This document shows positions 23,298 to 33,552 of a stretch of 64,000 bases of DNA, piece by piece (the stretch's first letter is position 1; every line of letters starts with the position of its first letter). The notes beneath the pieces were generated by a model, which was not told the DNA's origin, made no database searches, and worked only from the letters and a program-made list of their open reading frames with translations. Source of the stretch: Candidatus Roizmanbacteria bacterium RIFCSPLOWO2_02_FULL_40_13 (GTDB lineage: Bacteria > Patescibacteriota > Microgenomatia > UBA1406 > GWC2-37-13); contig MGBA01000001.1 of assembly GCA_001789965.1 (NCBI GenBank), positions 62,001 through 126,000 of the forward strand, given 5' to 3'. The position numbers and the translations under genes were made by a program.

Positions 23298-25529
23298 TTA
23301 TAGCGAAACCGCACTGTTTTCCTTAACTTTTTCTTCAAGGATGAGTTTGGCAATTTGGGAATCGATCTCTTCGCTTATAACGCGTTGCAGGTTGCGTGCA
23401 CCGAATTCAGGCTTATACGCGTTAGTAATAAGGTTTTTAAGGGTTTGATCCGACACCTCAACCTTTATTTTATGAAGTTTGTAGAGTCTATCCGAATTTT
23501 CCCTTATGATCTTCTTACCGAGATCAAATAAAGCGGTTTGATCAAACGCCTGATATCCGATAACTCCATCAAATCTGTTTAAAAACTCCGGGGAAAAAAG
23601 TTTGTTTTCAATAAGAAAGTCTGTAAGTTGTTCTTGCGAAATTTTATTCTTAAATAATTCAGTAGAAGCGGCGTTGGAGGTTGCGACAATAATGAGGTTT
23701 TTACAATCAACATGTTTCCCATATCCGTCGGCAAAATATCCCTCGTCCAATATAGTAAGAAAAATATTAGCGAGATCTTTATGCGCTTTTTCAATCTCAT
23801 CAAGTAAAAGTACTCCATAAGGAAGTTCCCGAATCTTTTCCGTAAGGAGGCCCGGGATTTGTTTATCGAGCGATCCTATCAGTTGGGGAATGTCTTCCTT
23901 GCTCTGATATGAAGACATATCAAAACGGATTAAATGATTGTCGTCTCCAAAAAAAATCTTGGAAAGAACTTTTGCGGTTTCCGTTTTCCCTACTCCGGTT
24001 GGTCCTAGAAATAAAAAAGAGGCAAGAGGTTTTTTCCGTTTACCTAGTTGCACAAAAGAACTTTGAAGAGTTTTTTCAATACTGTCAATAGCATACGGCT
24101 GATGAAGAATGGAAACCGAAAGGTCTTCCTTAAGACGGAGAAGTTTATTTTTCAATGCACCGTCAAGTTGGGTGGGAATATGAGTTTTTTCCGATATAAC
24201 CGCGTCAACAATTTGAGGGAGCACAATGACTTTTTCTCCACTCTTTTGGTATTTATGTTGGAGTGCATACACACAGGCCTCTTCGAGTAAATTAATTGCT
24301 TTTTCAGGAAACGGTATATGGGTTATGTAATAGTCACTTCTTTCTATGGTATTTGCGACAGTCTCATAAGGAATAATTACATTGTTCTTTTTTTCCAGAT
24401 CGACGACGAGATTGAGAAGAATTTCCATAGCATGAATTTTCGCAATTTCCTCAATGTCAATTTTCGTAAATATTCGACTAATCTTCTCGTTGGGAAAAAT
24501 AAATTTTTGATATAAAAAAGGAGTTGTGATGCCTACGACGTGCAGTTTTGACGTTTTCGCAAATTTTTCAAGCGGAATAGAAAGGTCTACTCTATCTTGG
24601 GTGGACGAAACAAAACGATCGAGATTTTCTATCAGTAAAATAATGTTTGTCGCCTCAGATGCTTCTTTAAACAATTCCTCTAAAAATAATTCACGTTTCT
24701 TTTGATCCGTTTGTTCACTTAAGACCCGTTCCGCATTGAGTTTAAGAATGCGTTTGTATGCAAGAAGATTATTGCTTTTACCCTCGTAAATTCTTTTTGA
24801 GAGGCTGTCAATAATCGCACGTTTTCCCACTCCTTCTTCACCAACAAGTACGACATTGCTTTCAGTATTTTTAATTAACACGCTTTCGATCGCCTCTATT
24901 TCTTTCGCTCTGTCTACGGCGCTATGTATTGTTATTTGATGTGAAGGTTCAGTTAGGTCGTCTGTGTACTGATCAAGTATGGGAGTGTATCCAAACGCCC
25001 AATCTCTTGCCAAAGGAGGAACGCTAAAAAGATTCTCCAATTTCCACCATTTTGTTTGTTTTAAACTTTTTTCATAATAAGAATCAAACCAATTCGTGGT
25101 TCCGATTCTTGAAGGTGGAAGCAAGCTATGGTCTTGGAGAAAGCGAATTTTGAATAACTCTTTTCGTTCTTCTTCCGATTTCACGAATCTACCTGCAACG
25201 AGAAGAAAGGGAAGAAGAAGAACAAATATAAGAACATTAACAGGGACAAATACAAGGTACGCCGTTTCGATTAAAAGAAAAAAAATAAGTATGGAAATCC
25301 TCATAAAAAAACCTAAAAATCGCGAAATCAAATTAAAGGCAAGCCGGTTTGACCATTCCTCAAATGAAAACCCCATACTGGTTTTTCTTCCGGTTAAATT
25401 CTTCCATGGTTTAAATAAAGTGGTAGCCAAAGCTGGAACAGAAAAAAAATACGGCAAAAATAAGAATACATTTACCAGTCCTTCGAAGAAGTTATGTATA
25501 AGTTTTTGAAGATCGCTTTCTTTCTTCAT
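23298..25529 (-). CDS. Membrane-anchored ClpC-like double AAA+ ATPase
   Basis: A 743-residue Clp/Hsp100-type unfoldase with unusual topology. Two hydrophobic regions (about 12-38 and 70-112) replace the usual ClpN domain. AAA module 1 has Walker A GEEGVGKRA (230-238) and Walker B ILLIENLD. Module 2 has GPTGVGKTET (about residue 500), VLLLDEIEKAH and VATSNAA. A D2-small domain ends the protein. No ClpP gene is in the window, so whether it feeds a protease or works alone is open. TATAAT lies 8 nt before the ATG. Confidence 0.9.
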   Translation of the reverse strand: MKKESDLQKLIHNFFEGLVNVFLFLPYFFSVPALATTLFKPWKNLTGRKTSMGFSFEEWSNRLAFNLISRFLGFFMRISILIFFLLIETAYLVFVPVNVLIFVLLLPFLLVAGRFVKSEEERKELFKIRFLQDHSLLPPSRIGTTNWFDSYYEKSLKQTKWWKLENLFSVPPLARDWAFGYTPILDQYTDDLTEPSHQITIHSAVDRAKEIEAIESVLIKNTESNVVLVGEEGVGKRAIIDSLSKRIYEGKSNNLLAYKRILKLNAERVLSEQTDQKKRELFLEELFKEASEATNIILLIENLDRFVSSTQDRVDLSIPLEKFAKTSKLHVVGITTPFLYQKFIFPNEKISRIFTKIDIEEIAKIHAMEILLNLVVDLEKKNNVIIPYETVANTIERSDYYITHIPFPEKAINLLEEACVYALQHKYQKSGEKVIVLPQIVDAVISEKTHIPTQLDGALKNKLLRLKEDLSVSILHQPYAIDSIEKTLQSSFVQLGKRKKPLASFLFLGPTGVGKTETAKVLSKIFFGDDNHLIRFDMSSYQSKEDIPQLIGSLDKQIPGLLTEKIRELPYGVLLLDEIEKAHKDLANIFLTILDEGYFADGYGKHVDCKNLIIVATSNAASTELFKNKISQEQLTDFLIENKLFSPEFLNRFDGVIGYQAFDQTALFDLGKKIIRENSDRLYKLHKIKVEVSDQTLKNLITNAYKPEFGARNLQRVISEEIDSQIAKLILEEKVKENSAVSL

Positions 25530-25593
25530 TTAATTTCATTATACATATACCTGTATGTTTATAAAATCAAACAATTTTTTAAAGAAATACCCC

Positions 25594-25621
25594 TTGACTT
25601 TTGAAAATAAATGAGTATAAA
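25594..25621 (+). promoter_or_regulatory. Promoter of the ATP-grasp/PP-loop/decarboxylase cassette
   Basis: TTGACT, 16-bp spacer, TATAAA. It ends 5 nt before the ATG of a 9-codon ORF and 31 nt before the ATG of the ATP-grasp gene. Confidence 0.6.
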
Positions 25622-25626
25622 AAAAC

Positions 25627-25656
25627 ATGCGATTGTTTTTACTATTTTTTAGATGA
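25627..25656 (+). CDS. Candidate 9-codon leader peptide coupled to the ATP-grasp gene
   Basis: The ORF reads MRLFLLFFR and stops with TGA, which overlaps the ATP-grasp start as ATGA. The -10 box is only 5 nt upstream, so ribosomes would meet this ATG first on a leaderless mRNA. The main gene has no ribosome-binding site (T-rich upstream), so it may depend on re-initiation after this ORF. The Leu/Phe content recalls attenuator peptides but no terminator follows. Chance cannot be excluded for so short an ORF. Confidence 0.35.
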   Translation: MRLFLLFFR

Positions 25657-28136
25657 AAAAGAAAAAGAAAGGAACCCCTTTCGTAAAGAATAAAACACCG
25701 ATTGAAACAAAAAATCAAAACGAACTTTCCGGCAAGACAATTCTTGTAGTAAACACTGGTTATATAAAAAAGAAATTTATATTTCAAAGATTAAGGAAGC
25801 TTGGTTTAACCATCCTCGTTCTCAATAAAGAAAAGAATTGGGCGCAGCCATACGTAGACGAGTGGATTTTAGTTGACACAGCAAATCACAGTGAATCAAT
25901 ACGTGCGTTTGAATCTTTTCTAACCAATAACCCAAAAGTAAAAATCGACGGCGTTGTTACATTCTGGGAAGACGACGTGCTTTTAACTGCAAAAATTGTT
26001 GATAAGTTTAATTTAATCGGCATCCCCTTTCATGTTGCAAAACAAGCGCGCAATAAATATCTTTTCAGAGAGTTTTGCAAAAAAAACGGAATACGTGCCC
26101 CCAAACACAGATTAATTCGCACCCTGCGAGATGTAAAAGAAATAATTGATGAATTTGAATTCCCGCTTGTTGTGAAGCCTGCATATGGGGCAAATAGTGC
26201 GTTCGTGGTAAAGGTTGAGACTCCAGAAGATCTAACTGACACGTATAATTATATCCGGAAAAACATTTCGACAAACACCGAGAGCGCGTTGTCAGACGGA
26301 CTTGATGTTTTTGTTGAGGAATATATCGATGGCGATGAGGTTGATATAGATATCTTAATTCAAAATGGCAAAATAAAGTTTTATTCTCTTTCAGACAATT
26401 ACATAACAACAGGCCCATTTTTTATAGAAACAGGACAATCAATTCCATCGAGTCTCCCTGATCTTAATCAACTAGAGCTCGTAAGTATGGCAGAAGAGAC
26501 CTTAGAGAAATTAGGAATTTTCAACGGCTGTATCCATTACGAGGCAAAGATTACGAAGAATGGTCCTGTTCCTCTCGAGGTGAACTTAAGGATGGGTGGA
26601 GATGAGGTTTGGTCATCGGTAAAAGGAGTTTGGGGTGCGGATCTCGTGGAAGGTGCGGCAAAAATAGCTTTAGGAGTTTATTTAAAGAATGACAAGCCCG
26701 CGCTACCCAAACGGTATATTGCGGGATTGTATTTTTTAACGGATTCTTCGGGAATTCTTTCAAAACAATTTGTAGATCAAGAAATCAAAAGAAAATCATA
26801 TCTTGTTGAGTTTCATTTTTTCAAACAGGTTGGAGAGCCTGTATTGGTGCCTCCTGAAGGATTCGACTACATAGGAGAGATTACTGTTTCTGGAGACAAT
26901 CTGATCGATGCGCAAGATAATCTCAAGGACGCGAAAAAATATTTCGATTTTGAAGTTGTGAAATTCAATTCGGAATCGGCAATGGGTAAAACATCACGAA
27001 AAAGCCGCTTCTCATCTGCCGTCCTTAATAAGGACCTCCTTCTTAGGGCGGCAAAAATAGAACATCTGCGGCGCGCAAACAGTGAAAATTTACGGAATCT
27101 TCATGTAGGGATTGCGTGCAACGTCTACGATAAAGACTCTTCAAGCGATGTAGAAATAGAGCTTACAAAAATAGGATCAGACATAAAAAAAGCTCTAATC
27201 GAGCGTGGATACAATGTCAAAGTCTTTGATTTTAATGACGCAAGTAAAGCCTTCCGAGAACTAAAAGAAAGCGACATAGACCTTGTATTTAATGTGTGTG
27301 AAAGGATTAATAACGCAAGTCTGCTTGAGCCCCATGCCGCAGCGCTTCTTGAGATCTTACAGATTCCTCATACTGGCTCAAATTATTTAACGCTTGGAAC
27401 ATGTATAGATAAGATCAAAGTTAAAAAAATTCTCAGACATCATGATATCCCTACTCCAAAATGGGACTACGCATATAGTCTGGATGATGAGATAGATGAT
27501 ACGTTGGAATATCCTTTAATTGTCAAACCGGCCAATAAAGATCATTCTATTGGTATAACTCAGGCTTCAGTGGCAACGAGCAAACGAGAACTGGAGAAAC
27601 AACTAAAGCATGTTATTGAGAATTTGGGAAGTCCTGCTCTTATCGAAGAGTATATTGAAGGGGACGAATATGACGTCACAATTTTAGGAAGCAGTGAAGA
27701 TGACTTTAAAGTTCTTCCCCTGGCAAGAACAATTTTCAACAACTTACCCGAAGGGTATTGGCACATCTATCCTTATGAGGCAAAGTGGAACGGAGAATCA
27801 AAAGCATACAGTAGGATCGTGACCCAACGGCCACCGAAAAACATCAGTAAAAGACTTGAAGCATTGATCACAGAGATCGCGCTGGACACATACAATATTC
27901 TCGAATGTCAAGATTACGGAAGAGTTGAGATTAAAATTGATAAAAATGGAAATCCTCATGTTTTAGAGCTTAATCCCAATCCTTCCCTGTCAGAAGATGG
28001 TTTTGTAACCCGTGCTGCACGATTGGTCCGGATGAATTATGGAGATCTGATAGAGGAAATAATCCGCCTTTCAGTGAGAAGATATAAAACCAAGTTTTCA
28101 CAATTTAAAAATCTAAATTACAACCTCAATTTTTAG
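25653..28136 (+). CDS. Tandem ATP-grasp ligase (carnosine-synthase-like + D-Ala-D-Ala-ligase-like)
   Basis: An 827-residue cytosolic protein with two complete ATP-grasp enzymes. Half 1 (about 28-430): a pre-ATP-grasp Rossmann domain, then FPLVVKPAYGANSAFVVKVE, VEEYIDGDEVDIDILI and a metal-binding EVNLRMGGDEVW. Half 2 (about 465-800): LHVGIACNVYDKDSSSD, IVKPANKDHSIGI, IEEYIEGDEYDVTILG and ELNPNPSLSEDGFV, as in D-Ala-D-Ala ligases. Each half should join a carboxylate to an amine with ATP, giving two peptide or pseudopeptide bonds. It begins a row with a MurL-like enzyme (4-bp gap) and a PLP decarboxylase. Substrates are unknown. Confidence 0.9.
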   Translation: MKKKKKGTPFVKNKTPIETKNQNELSGKTILVVNTGYIKKKFIFQRLRKLGLTILVLNKEKNWAQPYVDEWILVDTANHSESIRAFESFLTNNPKVKIDGVVTFWEDDVLLTAKIVDKFNLIGIPFHVAKQARNKYLFREFCKKNGIRAPKHRLIRTLRDVKEIIDEFEFPLVVKPAYGANSAFVVKVETPEDLTDTYNYIRKNISTNTESALSDGLDVFVEEYIDGDEVDIDILIQNGKIKFYSLSDNYITTGPFFIETGQSIPSSLPDLNQLELVSMAEETLEKLGIFNGCIHYEAKITKNGPVPLEVNLRMGGDEVWSSVKGVWGADLVEGAAKIALGVYLKNDKPALPKRYIAGLYFLTDSSGILSKQFVDQEIKRKSYLVEFHFFKQVGEPVLVPPEGFDYIGEITVSGDNLIDAQDNLKDAKKYFDFEVVKFNSESAMGKTSRKSRFSSAVLNKDLLLRAAKIEHLRRANSENLRNLHVGIACNVYDKDSSSDVEIELTKIGSDIKKALIERGYNVKVFDFNDASKAFRELKESDIDLVFNVCERINNASLLEPHAAALLEILQIPHTGSNYLTLGTCIDKIKVKKILRHHDIPTPKWDYAYSLDDEIDDTLEYPLIVKPANKDHSIGITQASVATSKRELEKQLKHVIENLGSPALIEEYIEGDEYDVTILGSSEDDFKVLPLARTIFNNLPEGYWHIYPYEAKWNGESKAYSRIVTQRPPKNISKRLEALITEIALDTYNILECQDYGRVEIKIDKNGNPHVLELNPNPSLSEDGFVTRAARLVRMNYGDLIEEIIRLSVRRYKTKFSQFKNLNYNLNF

Positions 28137-28140
28137 AAAG

Positions 28141-29535
28141 ATGTCACAGAGAGGAAAACGCCCGAAGAAACTTCTTGTTGATGCAAAAATTACATCTTCA
28201 GGAATCGATATCTACTTAAACAAAGATCGTTTTCCCATCAGATATCCAAAAAAAATCTGGAATGCATATCCCAAAGAAAAAAAAGAAATACTAAAAGATA
28301 CATTAGCTCATAGCTCAACATTCTACGTGCCCCAGATCTTAGGAATTTCCGAAATTTCGTATAAAACCTCAAGACCACTGGCGGAAAGTTTTTTTTACAA
28401 AAACGGAATTTACGATATTCCCTATTGCGCAAATGTAGATAAAAAATCTTCAACAGAATATCTGAAATTTTTCTTCAAAACTCAATATTTATTTGCAGAT
28501 GATCAAATAAAAACACCAAAGGAGATTTTATTCAAAAAAGAAAAAAAGAAGAAAAAGAAAAGAGCCGTTATCCCCTTCTCATTTGGCAAGGAAAGCATAC
28601 TTTCTTACTCTTTAGCTAAAGAACTAGGCCTCGAACCAATTTTAGTGAGTATTGTTGACCCCTCACATAAATATGAATATTTTCATAAAAAGCCACTCGT
28701 CGACGCTTTCAAGAAAAAAACAGGTGTAGATGTCCATATTATTGAATATAATCCGGGTTGGTTTTGGGAAGGAAGATACTGGAATATTTTTACCGAGTTA
28801 GGGTGGGGTTTACACGTTACCGAGTACGAAATACTTACGTTGCCTTTCATATCTTATTTTGACGCGGACTACGTCATCGTTGGCAACGAGCAATCATGCA
28901 AAGATACCTATATAGATAAAGAAGGAGTCTTTATTTATCGCGCAGGCTACGATCAATATAAAGATTGGACTCAACAGCAAGCGCTACTCTGTTCCCTCTT
29001 ATTGGGACGCAAAATCGAGGTGATGAGTCTTGTGGAGCCTTTATATGAAATAACAGAAACAAAAATTCTTCACGAGAGATACCCTGAAGTTGGAAAATAT
29101 CAGATGTCATGTTTTGCAGTTGACGAGGATTCAAAAAATGCAAGGTGGTGCCAAAATTGTTCTAAGTGTTCTTATTTTTTCCCTTTATTTACGGCCTTCA
29201 ATATCGATACAAAAAAGCTTGGATTTACAGAAAATCTCTTTGATAAAAAACACGCCAAACTTTATGAGGTTTTTTTTACGCGCAAAAAAGGTACTGCTTC
29301 TTACGGTTCACAAGGCGAGCTGGCTATAGCTTTTTATTTATCTATGAAAAATGGTAAAACCGGTTACAGCATCGACAGGTTTAAAAAAGAAATGTTGTTA
29401 AAATTTATGAAAAATAAAAAAGAATGGGATAAAGAATTCATGGGAATTCACCCGACTAAAAATATTCCTCCTGCTTTTAAAAACAAGATTATAAAAATAT
29501 ATGAAGACGAATTAAAGGGGCTTCGTTTACGTTAG
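28141..29535 (+). CDS. PP-loop ATP pyrophosphatase-like enzyme, MurL-like
   Basis: A 464-residue cytosolic protein. IPFSFGKESILSYSLAKELG matches the PP-loop SGGKDS of AMP-forming enzymes, with Gly-Gly-Lys-Asp changed to Phe-Gly-Lys-Glu. Downstream VIVGNEQSCKDT and a Cys cluster WCQNCSKCSYF resemble MurL, the enzyme that activates and epimerises the terminal L-Glu of UDP-MurNAc-L-Ala-L-Glu. Family knowledge suggests carboxylate adenylation; true MurL function is not shown. A QueC-like or other PP-loop role is the alternative. It lies 4 bp after the ATP-grasp gene and abuts the decarboxylase gene, so it is clearly one operon. Confidence 0.75.
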   Translation: MSQRGKRPKKLLVDAKITSSGIDIYLNKDRFPIRYPKKIWNAYPKEKKEILKDTLAHSSTFYVPQILGISEISYKTSRPLAESFFYKNGIYDIPYCANVDKKSSTEYLKFFFKTQYLFADDQIKTPKEILFKKEKKKKKKRAVIPFSFGKESILSYSLAKELGLEPILVSIVDPSHKYEYFHKKPLVDAFKKKTGVDVHIIEYNPGWFWEGRYWNIFTELGWGLHVTEYEILTLPFISYFDADYVIVGNEQSCKDTYIDKEGVFIYRAGYDQYKDWTQQQALLCSLLLGRKIEVMSLVEPLYEITETKILHERYPEVGKYQMSCFAVDEDSKNARWCQNCSKCSYFFPLFTAFNIDTKKLGFTENLFDKKHAKLYEVFFTRKKGTASYGSQGELAIAFYLSMKNGKTGYSIDRFKKEMLLKFMKNKKEWDKEFMGIHPTKNIPPAFKNKIIKIYEDELKGLRLR

Positions 29536-30846
29536 ATGCTTGCAAAGGATTTACAAAAGGTCGAGAGAAACATCGCAGCGATTCTTAATTCAAAAAAGAA
29601 AATCCCTGTTTTTAATCCCAGACCGTTGGTGCGAAATGTTCTTAAAAAAAGAGCAAGAATTCTTAAGACTGTGAAAAAACACAAAACACCATTTTTTTTA
29701 TACGACAAAACAGAACTCATAAAAAGCATTGACGACTTTAGAGAAATATTTAAGAAGCATGTTCCTTCTTCTGAAATCTATTACGCAATGAAAGCAAATC
29801 CCCATGAGTTTATTCTGAAGGATGTTGTGAGAAATGGTTTGGGGATCGATGCTTCGAGCGGGCACGAATTACAAAAAGCTTTAAAAATTGGAGCCGAAAG
29901 GATTCTTTTTACCGGACCAGGAAAAACAATAGATGAGTTGATGATTGCGTTAAAACACAATAGGAAAGTTGTTCTGAATATAGACAGCACGGGAGAAATC
30001 CGGAAGTTGAAAAGTCTTATCAAAAAAATCAAAAAAAAATTACAGGTTGGAATAAGAATTTCTACGTCAGATCATGGCAAATGGACTAAGTTTGGCATTC
30101 CTCTCCACGAGCTGTCTTCCATTTGGAAGGATTTAAAAAAAGACGACTTTTTACAACCAGAAGGAATTCAAGCTCATATGAGTTGGAATGAGACAGCTGA
30201 GCCTTACAAGAACATCATTTCTACAATTGCAAGATATCTTGACGATCACAAGGAACTTAAAAGAGAAATCAAGTTTATTGACTTAGGAGGAGGCTTCCTT
30301 CCACAAAAAATTGAAGGGCTTCATTCCTGGAGTTTAGTAAAGGGGCAAATTGCAAAAATTGCAGCAGAAGAAGTTGGAGAAACATCTACTCTTACCAGAA
30401 AACATTTCTTAAGTAAGGCGATTCCTCTTTCTAAATACGCAAGTGAGATAGGATCTGCAATTAAAAAACACTTAAGCGACCTCGGTTGCACGTATTACTT
30501 TGAGCCAGGAAGAATAATCTGCAATAACGCAATGCATATTGTTCTCCGCGTCGAGGATGTTAAAAACCCACACGCAGTAATTGCAGATGGCGGCACAAAC
30601 ATGATTGGCTGGGAGCGCTTCGAAGAAGAATATTTTCCCGTTGTGAATATTACACAGCCATCTCTACAAGAGAAAGAAGTCGTGATATATGGATCACTTT
30701 GTACGCCCCATGATATTTGGGGATATTTTTATCATGGCAAAAAAATAATCGAAAAAGATATTCTGGTGATTCCAAATCAAGGGGCGTATACTTATACGTA
30801 TGCACAAAACTTTATTAAACCAATTCCACAAGTTTTTGCACTTTAA
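29536..30846 (+). CDS. Fold-type III PLP-dependent amino-acid decarboxylase
   Basis: A 436-residue enzyme of the DAP/ornithine/arginine decarboxylase group. IYYAMKANPHEF holds the PLP lysine, IDLGGGF the phosphate loop, YFEPGRIICNN the EPGR motif, and GSLCTPHDI the catalytic Cys and Asp at the dimer interface. NQGAYTYTYAQNFI is the usual C-terminal block. The N-terminal 50 residues are an extra basic extension. The substrate could be DAP, ornithine, or a peptide-linked amino acid made by its neighbours. It starts on the base after the PP-loop gene stop. Confidence 0.92.
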   Translation: MLAKDLQKVERNIAAILNSKKKIPVFNPRPLVRNVLKKRARILKTVKKHKTPFFLYDKTELIKSIDDFREIFKKHVPSSEIYYAMKANPHEFILKDVVRNGLGIDASSGHELQKALKIGAERILFTGPGKTIDELMIALKHNRKVVLNIDSTGEIRKLKSLIKKIKKKLQVGIRISTSDHGKWTKFGIPLHELSSIWKDLKKDDFLQPEGIQAHMSWNETAEPYKNIISTIARYLDDHKELKREIKFIDLGGGFLPQKIEGLHSWSLVKGQIAKIAAEEVGETSTLTRKHFLSKAIPLSKYASEIGSAIKKHLSDLGCTYYFEPGRIICNNAMHIVLRVEDVKNPHAVIADGGTNMIGWERFEEEYFPVVNITQPSLQEKEVVIYGSLCTPHDIWGYFYHGKKIIEKDILVIPNQGAYTYTYAQNFIKPIPQVFAL

Positions 30847-30849
30847 TAC

Positions 30850-30880
30850 TTGACAAATTCTTGTGATTGTTTACTATAAA
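30850..30880 (+). promoter_or_regulatory. Promoter of the FemABX/BioF2-like gene
   Basis: TTGACA (30850-30855) followed by TACTATAAA (30872-30880); spacer 16 or 19 bp depending on which hexamer is used. It lies directly after the decarboxylase stop codon and gives the next gene its own transcript. Confidence 0.65.
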
Positions 30881-30910
30881 ATAAGCAATTAGTTTGTATA
30901 AAAAAATCAA

Positions 30911-31966
30911 GTGGCTTTACTAGATAAACAACAAAAATATAAAAAATTTCTGCAAACTTCAGAAGTAATCCCCGTACTAGAAATCCTCAGCAAAACGACT
31001 CAGCAACGTTTTCTTTATGGAGAAAATGGATTGTCAAAATTAATCCCCCGTCTCAAGTTCCGAATTCATACAGACGCCAGAGAATGTTTTGCGTTATGGA
31101 ATAAATTTAATACCGATAAATCACTCTTCGCCTTATGGGATTTTCGTACGGCCTTTCATGACGCTTGGGATGAAAAAAGATATTTTTTAACAATCTATAA
31201 CAATTCAGAACCAATCGGCTTGCTTCCACTAGCGTATGACGAGAAGGAAAAAGTATATGAATGGTACGGAACAGAATGGCAGGAAGAAAATAAATTTTAT
31301 CAGCGAGGAAAAAATCTGTTTCCTCTTTTATTTACCGTTATGCCCGCGCAGATAAAATGCAATTCAATAATTCCTTCAAGTATTGACGAAGACTACTCTC
31401 AAGAATTTATTCCTGACGATCCGCAGTTTTATATAGATATAACCAACCTAAAGAATGTGAACGAACTTTTTTCAACATTTAGCAAAAAGCACCGTTATAA
31501 CTTTAGGAGAGATTACATGCATATTTTAGAACAAAAACCGCAGGTCGAGTGGATCACTAGTCCAGCGGGACAAGTTAGAAGCCTTTTTACTATTAAAGAT
31601 CTTTCGATCAAACGATTTGGCGAGGCCGAGGATAAAAATTCATCTATGTTTAGACATGAAAAATATCTGGAGAGCTTCATTAATATTGTAAAAAATCAAG
31701 GCAAATATAAAACAAAAATGCTGGTTGTAAAAATACAAGGAAAAATAGTTGCTATTGATATGATTGCAATGTACGACAAAGGTTATTATTTACTACAGGG
31801 CGCAAGCGATCTTGGAAATTATTCAGGTCTGGGTAATTTTATATGCTATCTGGAGTTTGAGGACGCGATCAAAAATGGCTTTGAGGAAATCAATGCCCTT
31901 CAAGAAGATAATAATTGGAAACACCGATACTTTTCTTCCCGTCCCCTTCTTAAATTAAAGAAATAG
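30911..31966 (+). CDS. GNAT-fold acyltransferase, BioF2/FemABX-like
   Basis: A 351-residue soluble protein. FSKKHRYNFRRDYMHILEQ and the closing GLGNFICYLEFEDAIKNGFE plus NNWKHRYFSSRP are the pattern of Acetyltransf_6 (BioF2-like) proteins, relatives of FemABX enzymes that use aminoacyl-tRNA or acyl donors. The start is GTG at 30911; no ATG fits. It follows the ATP-grasp/PP-loop/decarboxylase genes in the same direction but has its own promoter. Acylation or aminoacylation of their product, or of cell-wall peptide, is an inference. Confidence 0.75.
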   Translation: MALLDKQQKYKKFLQTSEVIPVLEILSKTTQQRFLYGENGLSKLIPRLKFRIHTDARECFALWNKFNTDKSLFALWDFRTAFHDAWDEKRYFLTIYNNSEPIGLLPLAYDEKEKVYEWYGTEWQEENKFYQRGKNLFPLLFTVMPAQIKCNSIIPSSIDEDYSQEFIPDDPQFYIDITNLKNVNELFSTFSKKHRYNFRRDYMHILEQKPQVEWITSPAGQVRSLFTIKDLSIKRFGEAEDKNSSMFRHEKYLESFINIVKNQGKYKTKMLVVKIQGKIVAIDMIAMYDKGYYLLQGASDLGNYSGLGNFICYLEFEDAIKNGFEEINALQEDNNWKHRYFSSRPLLKLKK

Positions 31967-31970
31967 CGGT

Positions 31971-32010
31971 GGGTCAGCTGAGCTGACCGGTCACCAAGCT
32001 GAGCTTGGTG
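31971..32010 (-). repeat. Double-hairpin repeat, copy 1 (3' of tRNA-Val)
   Basis: A 40-bp unit of two dyads: GGTCAGCTGAGCTGACC and CACCAAGCTGAGCTTGGTG. The second dyad begins in the CCA end of tRNA-Val. It is 85% identical to copy 2 at 32099-32138, with paired changes that keep the stem. Confidence 0.85.
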
Positions 32011-32081
32011 GTCGCTAGAGGACTCGAACCTCTGACCTTTCGGATGTAAGCCGAGCGCTCTACCAACTGAGCTAAGCGACC
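32006..32081 (-). tRNA. tRNA-Val (anticodon TAC)
   Basis: Cloverleaf with acceptor GGTCGCT/AGCGACC, D arm GCTC-AGTTGGTA-GAGC, anticodon loop CTTACAT (anticodon TAC) and T arm CAGAG-GTTCGAGT-CCTCT region. Discriminator A73 is followed by encoded CCA, but this CCA is also part of the repeat hairpin downstream. The first pair of the anticodon stem (27-43) is a C-A mismatch. The body is 73 nt (32009-32081). Confidence 0.93.
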
Positions 32082-32098
32082 ATCATGACTTGCAGGGT

Positions 32099-32138
32099 GG
32101 GTCAGCTAAGCTGACCAATCACCGAGCTAAGCTCGGTG
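32099..32138 (-). repeat. Double-hairpin repeat, copy 2 (3' of tRNA-Ile)
   Basis: Two dyads, GGTCAGCTAAGCTGACC and CACCGAGCTAAGCTCGGTG. Relative to copy 1 an A-T pair in the second stem has become G-C, so pairing is preserved while sequence changed. It overlaps the last bases of tRNA-Ile. Confidence 0.85.
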
Positions 32139-32208
32139 GGCGCGGATAGAATCGAACTATCGCTCTCATCTTTATCAGAGATGTGTTTTACCATTAAACT
32201 ACGCGCCC
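32137..32208 (-). tRNA. tRNA-Ile (anticodon GAT)
   Basis: A 72-nt cloverleaf: acceptor GGGCGCG/CGCGCCC, T8-A9, D arm GTTT-AATGGTA-AAAC, anticodon arm CATCT-CTGATAA-AGATG (anticodon GAT), T arm ATAG-TTCGATT-CTAT with flanking pairs. A73 is followed by CCG, so CCA must be added after transcription. The promoter is TGATATAAT at 32289-32297. Confidence 0.93.
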
Positions 32209-32280
32209 TAACCATTATTCCGACGATTCTGTCGGAATCCCGACCCTTTTTTATAGGCGTCGGGAAACTACGCGCCCTAA
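32196..32280 (-). repeat. 16-bp direct repeat: tRNA-Ile 5' end duplicated upstream
   Basis: AAACTACGCGCCCTAA occurs at 32196-32211 (inside and just before tRNA-Ile) and again, identical, at 32265-32280. The 53 bp between hold two dyads, ATTCCGAC...GTCGGAAT and CCCGAC...GTCGGG. The extra copy is a tRNA 5' remnant lying between the promoter and the real tRNA. Confidence 0.85.
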
Positions 32281-32288
32281 TAGGTCTA

Positions 32289-32297
32289 ATTATATCA
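32289..32297 (-). promoter_or_regulatory. Extended -10 promoter of the tRNA-Ile/tRNA-Val unit
   Basis: TGATATAAT on the minus strand, upstream of the duplicated tRNA 5' fragment. The primary transcript would therefore begin near 32281 and include the fragment, both tRNAs and both hairpin repeats. Confidence 0.6.
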
Positions 32298-32328
32298 AAT
32301 TTGGGTTTTGCTTTTTTAGTTTTGGGTT

Positions 32329-32334
32329 TATAAT
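32329..32334 (+). promoter_or_regulatory. -10 box of the MgtE-domain gene
   Basis: TATAAT with a 6-nt gap (AGATCC) to the ATG at 32341; predicts a leaderless mRNA. Confidence 0.6.
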
Positions 32335-32340
32335 AGATCC

Positions 32341-33552
32341 ATGCTTTACTTTTCAGAACTTCAAAACAATAGAGTGCTTACAAAAGACGGAATTTATATC
32401 GGAAAACTGAAAGATGTGATTTTTAGAGCGTCAGATAATCCGGTTGTTACCAAACTCGTGGTTAAAACCGACAAAAATCCCGAAGCTATTATCCCGATAG
32501 AAGATGTAAGAAAAATAAACGGCGGCGTCATATTGGAGAAAAGCTACGTACTATCTAAATTAAAAGAAAACGAACTTTTTTTAACAAAAAATTTACTTGA
32601 TAACCAAATCATAGATATATCAGGTGATAAGATCGTACGGGTAAATGATGTAGCGATTCAGGATAAACCCGGCTATAGTATCGCCGGAGTCGACATCGGG
32701 CTTGTCGGGATTCTCCGATGGCTTGGTCTAATAGACTTTATAAACAAGCTTTTAGGAAAAATTGGGATCAAATTACGATCCCAATTTTTGTCATGGGCAG
32801 ACATCCAGACACTAGAACTCAGTCGGGGTCACGTAAAAATTAAAAAAGAACAGACAAAATTAGAAAAAATTCGTCCTGAAGATCTTGCAGATTATCTTGA
32901 GGAAACCAATGTAGCCAATGTAAAAGGGATACTGAGAGTCTTAGGTGAAAAAAAATCAGTTGAGGTTATAAACAATTTAAGGCTCAATTATCAGACAGCT
33001 CTTTTTAAACAGTTTGAATCCGATCAGGCTGCAAAAATTATTTCACATATGGATCCTGAAGAAGCCGTAGATGTGTTGCTTTCTCTTTCCAAGAAAAAAC
33101 GGGAAAAAATTCTCGATCAGCTTACCGATTCGTCTTACAAGGAGATTATGTATCTTCTCAATCTTCCTGACACACCGGTTGCAAAAATTTTAACAACCGA
33201 ATTTATCTCTGTTCAACCGGACCAAACCGTTAAAGAGGTCATAGATACAATTAGAAAAGAGACGAACGATTTTTACAATCTTTCTTACGTATATGTAGTT
33301 AATAAAGATATGCAGTTAGTGGGAGTTTTTGATCTTCACGAATTACTCATGCAGGGTTCCAACACACAGGTATATAAGTTTATGACGCAGCGATTGGTAA
33401 CCATTCAATTAACAACACCTATGGTTGTTGCATTCCGGAAAATAGTGAAATACAAATTATACGCGCTGCCTGTCGTCGACCGCGAAAAACGTATGTTGGG
33501 TATTGTTATTTATGATGATATTGTTGATTTGCACTTAAGAGGTAATGAATAA
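32341..33552 (+). CDS. Soluble PRC-barrel/MgtE-N/CBS-pair protein
   Basis: A 403-residue cytosolic protein made of magnesium-sensor parts but no channel. Residues 1-165 hold two PRC-barrel-like segments (GIYIGKLKDVIF; GDKIVRVNDVAI). Residues 170-270 match the MgtE N superhelical domain (IRPEDLADYLEE, MDPEEAVDVLLSLSKKKREK). A pair of CBS domains fills 275-403 (TEFISVQPDQTVKEVI; MTQRLVTIQLTTPM). The transmembrane domain of MgtE is absent. The gene overlaps the NRAMP-like gene by 8 bp, so this is probably the regulatory subunit of that transporter. Confidence 0.9.
   Translation: MLYFSELQNNRVLTKDGIYIGKLKDVIFRASDNPVVTKLVVKTDKNPEAIIPIEDVRKINGGVILEKSYVLSKLKENELFLTKNLLDNQIIDISGDKIVRVNDVAIQDKPGYSIAGVDIGLVGILRWLGLIDFINKLLGKIGIKLRSQFLSWADIQTLELSRGHVKIKKEQTKLEKIRPEDLADYLEETNVANVKGILRVLGEKKSVEVINNLRLNYQTALFKQFESDQAAKIISHMDPEEAVDVLLSLSKKKREKILDQLTDSSYKEIMYLLNLPDTPVAKILTTEFISVQPDQTVKEVIDTIRKETNDFYNLSYVYVVNKDMQLVGVFDLHELLMQGSNTQVYKFMTQRLVTIQLTTPMVVAFRKIVKYKLYALPVVDREKRMLGIVIYDDIVDLHLRGNE

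Follow-up and report, generated by a model that had tools for sequence, protein, structure and literature searches.

Peptide operons that combine ATP-grasp, GNAT and pyridoxal phosphate (PLP)-dependent enzymes were reportedly predicted by Aravind and colleagues in their 2009 amidoligase survey. Here we compare with such systems a four-gene cassette in a 64,000-nucleotide stretch (the window) of the genome of Candidatus Roizmanbacteria bacterium RIFCSPLOWO2_02_FULL_40_13, encoding a tandem ATP-grasp ligase, a PP-loop enzyme paralogous to MurL, a fold-III PLP decarboxylase and a FemX-like transferase.

Each component has described relatives. The Xanthomonas MurD2-MurL pair (PMC8788868) follows the same ligase-then-epimerase logic and includes a PP-loop enzyme with the GKxS, NE, SC and WCxxCxKC motifs; the cassette protein, however, belongs to a separate clade, lies away from murD and is partnered by ATP-grasps rather than Mur ligases. 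L-amino-acid ligases (LALs) of dipeptide natural products, such as BL00235, BacD and TabS, resemble the N-terminal half of the cassette ligase, which is an LAL by sequence with intact catalytic residues but is fused to a second, Ddl-like ligase and keeps other partner genes. Ddl (D-Ala-D-Ala ligase) shares its fold and catalytic residues with the C-terminal half, which nevertheless falls below the family cut-off and has changed acceptor-site positions. FemX, Sbb17 and Sba18 are the best structural matches of the GNAT protein, albeit at 8-10% sequence identity. LysA, BtrK and FslC (decarboxylases of diaminopimelate [DAP], ornithine and carrier or conjugate substrates) share fold III and the active-site Lys, His, Cys and Asp with the cassette decarboxylase, which reaches about half the LysA cut-off score and pairs with an ATP-grasp rather than with lysine genes. 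ATP-grasp peptide pathways are already known; the gene set of this cassette is undescribed. A literature search, incomplete in coverage, found no account of this particular set, and a sequence-only reading of the window knew of no such pathway.

Results

The four genes probably represent the local form of a modular cluster, independent of nonribosomal peptide synthetases, that makes a short pseudopeptide (our rough probability is 0.55); on the best reading this product contains a D-residue and is probably decarboxylated. The genes are four plus-strand open reading frames (ORFs) at window positions 25653-31966, with intergenic gaps of 4, 0 and 64 nt, so that the first three are spaced as closely as the sequence-only reading had stated (0-4 bp):

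25653-28136, + strand: tandem ATP-grasp ligase, 827 aa
28141-29535, + strand: PP-loop, MurL-paralogous enzyme, 464 aa
29536-30846, + strand: fold-III PLP decarboxylase, 436 aa
30911-31966, + strand: FemX-like tandem-GNAT transferase, 351 aa

Partner Genes Recur around the Tandem Ligase in Many Lineages

To escape the effect of the single chromosomal slot that these genes occupy within the family (described below), named genomes were scanned for the tandem ligase. The scan yielded 69 further loci (70 with the window), mostly from Patescibacteria of many lineages, with four from Gammaproteobacteria and one from Woesearchaeota. Genes within six genes of the ligase were counted as partners, the expectation being about 1 locus per partner. 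The PP-loop gene lies near the ligase at 19 of the 70 loci (17 in tight codirectional runs), the decarboxylase at 11-12 (11 were counted, all in tight codirectional runs) and the FemX-like gene at 13; further partners are a third ATP-grasp (10/70), an enolase-superfamily dipeptide epimerase (8/70) and a DegT-like aminotransferase (5/70). All eight dipeptide epimerases fall at PP-loop loci (p 8e-6), and the third ATP-grasp is paired with the decarboxylase at nine of its 10 loci (p 3e-8), both values being uncorrected for phylogeny; in lineages outside the family the decarboxylase nearly always adjoins a third ATP-grasp. On the ligase tree, linkage to the PP-loop gene comes and goes (17 changes, of which no fewer than 10 are forced) and is therefore not a single inherited block.

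In an evenly drawn sample of 381 genomes from the phylum, 16 carried the ligase and nine the PP-loop gene; four carried both, and in each of these the two genes are adjacent or a few genes apart (P 2e-4; 0.002 without the window genome). Because codirectional neighborhoods recur in many lineages and the evenly drawn sample agrees, the gene set reflects more than chance. Thus, the cassette neighborhood, whose conservation had been set beforehand as the test that could refute the proposal, is conserved well past the family. The same partners recur at many loci, but they form a modular cluster with a tandem ATP-grasp core rather than a fixed set of four. A trait of ATP-grasp peptide clusters, that genes for stand-alone ligases are repeatedly linked to genes for enzymes that modify amino acids, is found here as in the operons predicted earlier (PMC2922099).

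Several neighbors did not qualify as partners: LysRS-sized and EpmA-like genes, present at five loci, were excluded because they are encoded on the other strand, and a P-type Ca ATPase near four loci barely exceeds chance. Small SET-domain proteins recur by the ligases (L119:6208-6621, L129:10467-11213, L133:15352-15897 and L065:10221-10616). The Gammaproteobacteria-labeled ligases (L157, L159, L163 and L171) form a tight clade nested in patescibacterial sequences, suggesting transfer or mis-binning. At two loci from Lake Pavin Parcubacteria (L119:1-18397 and L120:1-11278), the cassette is located in or next to the dcw cluster of division and cell-wall genes.

Both Modules of the Ligase Should Be Active

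The ligase matches Pfam ATP-grasp and Dala_Dala_lig_C. Near full-length homologs with 57-62% identity occur in eight other family genomes, and a ninth has one split across two contigs. The protein comprises two modules:

25734-27032, + strand: L-amino-acid-ligase-like N half, residues about 28-460
27102-28097, + strand: D-Ala-D-Ala-ligase-like C half, residues about 484-815

The solved structure nearest to the N half is the LAL BL00235 (3vot, E 3e-28), with BacD at 1.6e-16. The LAL_C2 score of the ligase (25.5) lies below the cut-off of 29.4, but LALs are the nearest solved homologs and no residue of the ATP-grasp catalytic set is lost, with K135, K175, E297, E309 and R313 invariant in 66 aligned sequences, so that by sequence the N half is an LAL. 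The C half matches Ddl structures (best 1.3e-24) and misses the D-Ala-D-Ala ligase cut-off of TIGR01205 (145.7 vs. 245.65 bits). Its Mg-site residues E772 and N774 are kept in 61 and 60, respectively, of 66 aligned full-length relatives. Because the N half shows little or no variation at the catalytic Lys and Mg-site positions, and most C halves retain them, both modules should be active in the window protein; the C half may be dead in L151, L152, L167 and L170, where the Mg-site Glu is lost.

C halves are more variable than N halves (5-95% range of pairwise identity, 33-72% and 47-64%, respectively), and this greater divergence fits the idea that the N half would make a common core to which the C half would add a variable unit. 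Residues 783 and 784 align with S281 and L282 of Escherichia coli DdlB, which we take to be the acceptor-carboxylate residues, and the window residues differ from those of Ddl. The pair is mostly D-C in stand-alone ligases and mostly changed beside cassette genes: Cys784 is present in 25 of 32 stand-alone ligases but in nine of 33 with an adjacent cassette gene (p 6e-5, uncorrected for phylogeny). As these residues shift with cassette adjacency, ligase specificity appears to track the cassette.

The PP-Loop Enzyme Has a Predicted QueC-Like Fold and Is Distinct from MurL

The PP-loop protein matches no Pfam family at E 0.01, and hence not QueC (PF06508). Against NCBIfam MurL it gives 2.8e-7 and 29.4 bits, far below the cut-off of 700, which is strict, the patescibacterial dcw MurL itself scoring 251.9. 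Since an unambiguous murL (NCBIfam 8e-75) adjoins murD in the dcw cluster of this genome, the cassette protein is not MurL itself, and in a tree 37 PP-loop proteins split from four MurLs with support of 100/100. Two features were located:

28579-28596, + strand: PP-loop motif SFGKES, with G149, K150 and S152 common to MurL
29110-29169, + strand: C-x12-CxxCxxC, probable zinc site (C324, C337, C340 and C343)

Compared with the four MurLs, the protein retains the conserved GKxS, N249-E250, S323-C324, W336-C337, C340 and C343. The C-x(n)-CxxCxxC arrangement, with a spacer of 12 in the window protein, occurs in 37 of 37 homologs and in the four MurLs; the QueC zinc motif, with its shorter spacer, is C(x)8CxxCxxC (PMC13329287). 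Profile sequence searches of the PDB with the PP-loop and GNAT proteins found no relatives and folds were used instead; a single-protein contig scan of genomes with the PP-loop protein gave no matches. Foldseek matched the AlphaFold model of the PP-loop enzyme (predicted local distance difference test [pLDDT] score of 93) to QueC (2.7e-5, template modeling score by target 0.66-0.71), then to QatC and Cap9. MurL and its paralogue look like PP-loop proteins of the QueC fold that carry a four-Cys site (window 28141-29535 and L032:8506-9882). In a 2021 review MurL was described as without known conserved domains (PMC8788868), and no paper among those searched names both MurL and QueC.

In QueC chemistry ATP activates a carboxylate that ammonia then attacks, and Cap9 substitutes a protein amine (PMC13279940). 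MurL converts ATP to AMP while inverting a peptide-bound Glu, with a hypothesized adenylate intermediate (PMC8788868). Therefore, carboxylate adenylation is the denominator shared by these enzymes. By analogy, our first choice is that the PP-loop enzyme would epimerize a peptide residue. Ligation, in which an amine would capture the carboxylate, seems less likely; this option is strengthened by the confinement of the enolase-type dipeptide epimerase to clusters holding the PP-loop gene. At one locus (L048:7737-11237) a PP-loop gene, a Ddl-like ATP-grasp and a KamA-type aminomutase stand in a row, and a beta-amino-acid building block is possible there.

The Decarboxylase and the FemX-Like Transferase

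The decarboxylase matches Pfam Orn_Arg_deC_N (5.1e-30), and its structural relatives are DAP decarboxylase (2p3e, 1.1e-21) and BtrK (2.8e-18). The fold-III residues K86, H214, GGG251-253, EPGR323-326, C389 and D393 are invariant in 13 homologs. The LysA model TIGR01048 gives 151.4 bits against a cut-off of 297.9.

The GNAT protein matches Acetyltransf_6, as do 22 of 24 homologs. Its model (pLDDT 91) is a double-GNAT fold closest to FemX (7z6a, 1.2e-11), in keeping with FemABX proteins, with the streptothricin-type aminoacyl-tRNA-dependent synthases Sbb17 and Sba18 and L-PGS/MprF also among the top matches. An invariant pair near the C terminus may be equivalent to F304-K305 of FemX:

31916-31921, + strand: W336-K337, invariant in 24 homologs

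At L130, the ligase and PP-loop genes are separated by one for an LPG-synthase-like protein.

The family assignments of the sequence-only reading stand: two ATP-grasp modules, Orn_Arg_deC_N/Orn_DAP_Arg_deC, Acetyltransf_6 and the 2.8e-7 similarity to MurL. Its BioF2/FemABX-like acyltransferase is indeed FemABX-like, but the fold is nearest to aminoacyl-tRNA-dependent FemX-type enzymes, not to a plain acyltransferase. The enzyme identities that it gave are likewise supported, and so is its idea that the genes could activate, epimerize, decarboxylate and link amino acids, with the correction that the PP-loop gene belongs to a clade separate from MurL.

One Chromosomal Slot within the Family

The source genome measures 0.93 Mb and is 94% complete, and its family-level relatives that bear names are Candidatus Roizmanbacteria. 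In family genomes the cassette genes occupy one slot (window 25530-32340) between two flanks that lie outside the cassette:

23298-25529, - strand: double-AAA, Clp-like ATPase with a membrane-anchored N terminus; the same flank in most family members
32341-33552, + strand: PRC/MgtE_N/CBS protein without the MgtE channel domain, followed by an adjoining Nramp transporter gene

Slot contents vary: some genomes have the tandem ligase, others paired separate Ddl-like ATP-grasps, a family we call n10 or a lone FemX-like gene, and the PP-loop gene may accompany each of them. The family survey covered 72 genomes; of the 18 that bear the PP-loop gene, 17 also have such an ATP-grasp or a FemX-like gene (p 0.007). 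The FemX-like gene and the ATP-grasps tend toward mutual exclusion (p 0.016), the exceptions being the window genome and G041, in which both occur as part of the complete set of four. Where the tandem fusion is missing, the PP-loop gene adjoins two separate Ddl-like ATP-grasps, in three family members and one genome of another family. The n10 proteins (L074:8804-10261, L065:6707-8176 and others) are ~480 aa long, have no Pfam match and pair with Ddl-like ATP-grasps. They were ruled out by BLAST as a counterpart of the ligase N half and are not PP-loop-like either; the motif ESNTRNTGGTD makes them look like PGM1-type ATP-grasps.

The cassette had been read as starting at 25594. A promoter-like TTGACT-16-TATAAA, spotted by eye, coincides with that position, but the ATG of the first ORF lies only at 25653, and shuffled sequence yields promoter-like sites at least as often as the cassette region does.

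Discussion

From these data we infer the substrates, reaction order, product and role as follows. The N half of the ligase would convert an amino acid to its acyl-phosphate and couple a second amino acid, giving a common dipeptide core, to which the Ddl-like C half would add a third, lineage-variable unit. The QueC-fold PP-loop enzyme would then adenylate a free carboxylate of the peptide, leading to inversion of that residue to the D form or, with lower probability, to its capture by an amine. The fold-III decarboxylase would strip the terminal carboxylate, plausibly at a D-center as in DAP decarboxylase, and the FemX-like protein would transfer an aminoacyl group from aminoacyl-tRNA to the free amine. 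An LAL and a dipeptide epimerase have been combined in vitro (PMC13338154).

Several observations weigh against such a pathway. Exactly these four genes were seen together in two family genomes only (the window genome and G041), although subsets of two or three are common; the dipeptide epimerase is missing from the window genome; and no exporter is consistently linked among the cassette loci. Many genomes have the ligase by itself, a core that evidently does not need the other three genes, which are therefore accessories. Finally, in two Parcubacteria the cassette is embedded among the dcw genes, which favors a wall-linked use there. These two cases, with the cassette between murD-ftsW-murG and murE at L119 and the order murG-ATP-grasp-PP-loop-tandem ligase at L120, make cell-wall chemistry the strongest rival: the cassette would build or decorate the peptidoglycan stem or cross-bridge. 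The MurL-like, Ddl-like and FemX-like proteins all have wall enzymes as their relatives elsewhere, and three of 24 GNAT homologs match Pfam FemAB_like. We nevertheless regard this as rather unlikely, because the genome already has the dcw murD-murL pair and a separate Ddl candidate (C11, 236.5 bits, marginally below the cut-off), most other loci showed no recognizable mur genes beside the cassette, bridge synthesis has no known step for a fold-III decarboxylase, and the ligase is patchy (16/381 genomes). It is very improbable that the C half simply serves as the D-Ala-D-Ala ligase of the cell with the other genes incidental. The tandem protein is the sole Ddl-like match in G037, G066 and G071, but a further match, scoring at or close to the cut-off, is present in the window genome, G041 and G017; neither tandem ligase nor Ddl occurs in several relatives with near-complete genomes; and the acceptor-site residues are unlike those of Ddl. 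Replacement of Ddl by the tandem ligase in the window genome was rejected, given the separate candidate.

The matches of the PP-loop model to QatC and Cap9 besides QueC raise the further idea of protein or peptide modification, in which this enzyme would join a small carboxylate to a protein or ribosomal peptide, as Cap9 does, and the ATP-grasp and FemX-like enzymes would add residues. SET-domain proteins and methyltransferases occur at some homologous loci, in keeping with this idea. However, the clusters showed neither a carrier protein nor a small conserved ORF that could encode a precursor (the survey covering ORFs above 70-80 aa), the N half is nearest to ligases that make dipeptides from free amino acids, and a dipeptide epimerase is a common partner, so we consider modification a good deal less probable than wall chemistry. 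The slimmest chance is that the genes are unrelated cargo. The slot between the Clp-like ATPase and MgtE_N/Nramp genes is a real hotspot with changing contents, but those contents are strikingly of one chemistry, and the same ligase partners recur at unrelated loci in many other candidate phyla, which largely refutes this explanation.

Patescibacteria are thought to depend on uptake from hosts and to make very little themselves. If a recurrent, cross-lineage cluster uses ATP to join, invert and decarboxylate amino acids, its product should repay the expense. The MurL-QueC fold link, as modeled, would give MurL, an epimerase with a mechanism that had been called unclear, a specific structural model, and the cassette chemistry is approachable with purified proteins and needs no culture of the organism. 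More tentatively, Patescibacteria may share an undescribed class of D-residue-containing, decarboxylated pseudopeptides that would serve in contacts with neighbor or host cells; the fused LAL-Ddl ligase would make them together with a tRNA-dependent transferase and a QueC-fold epimerase that works by adenylation.

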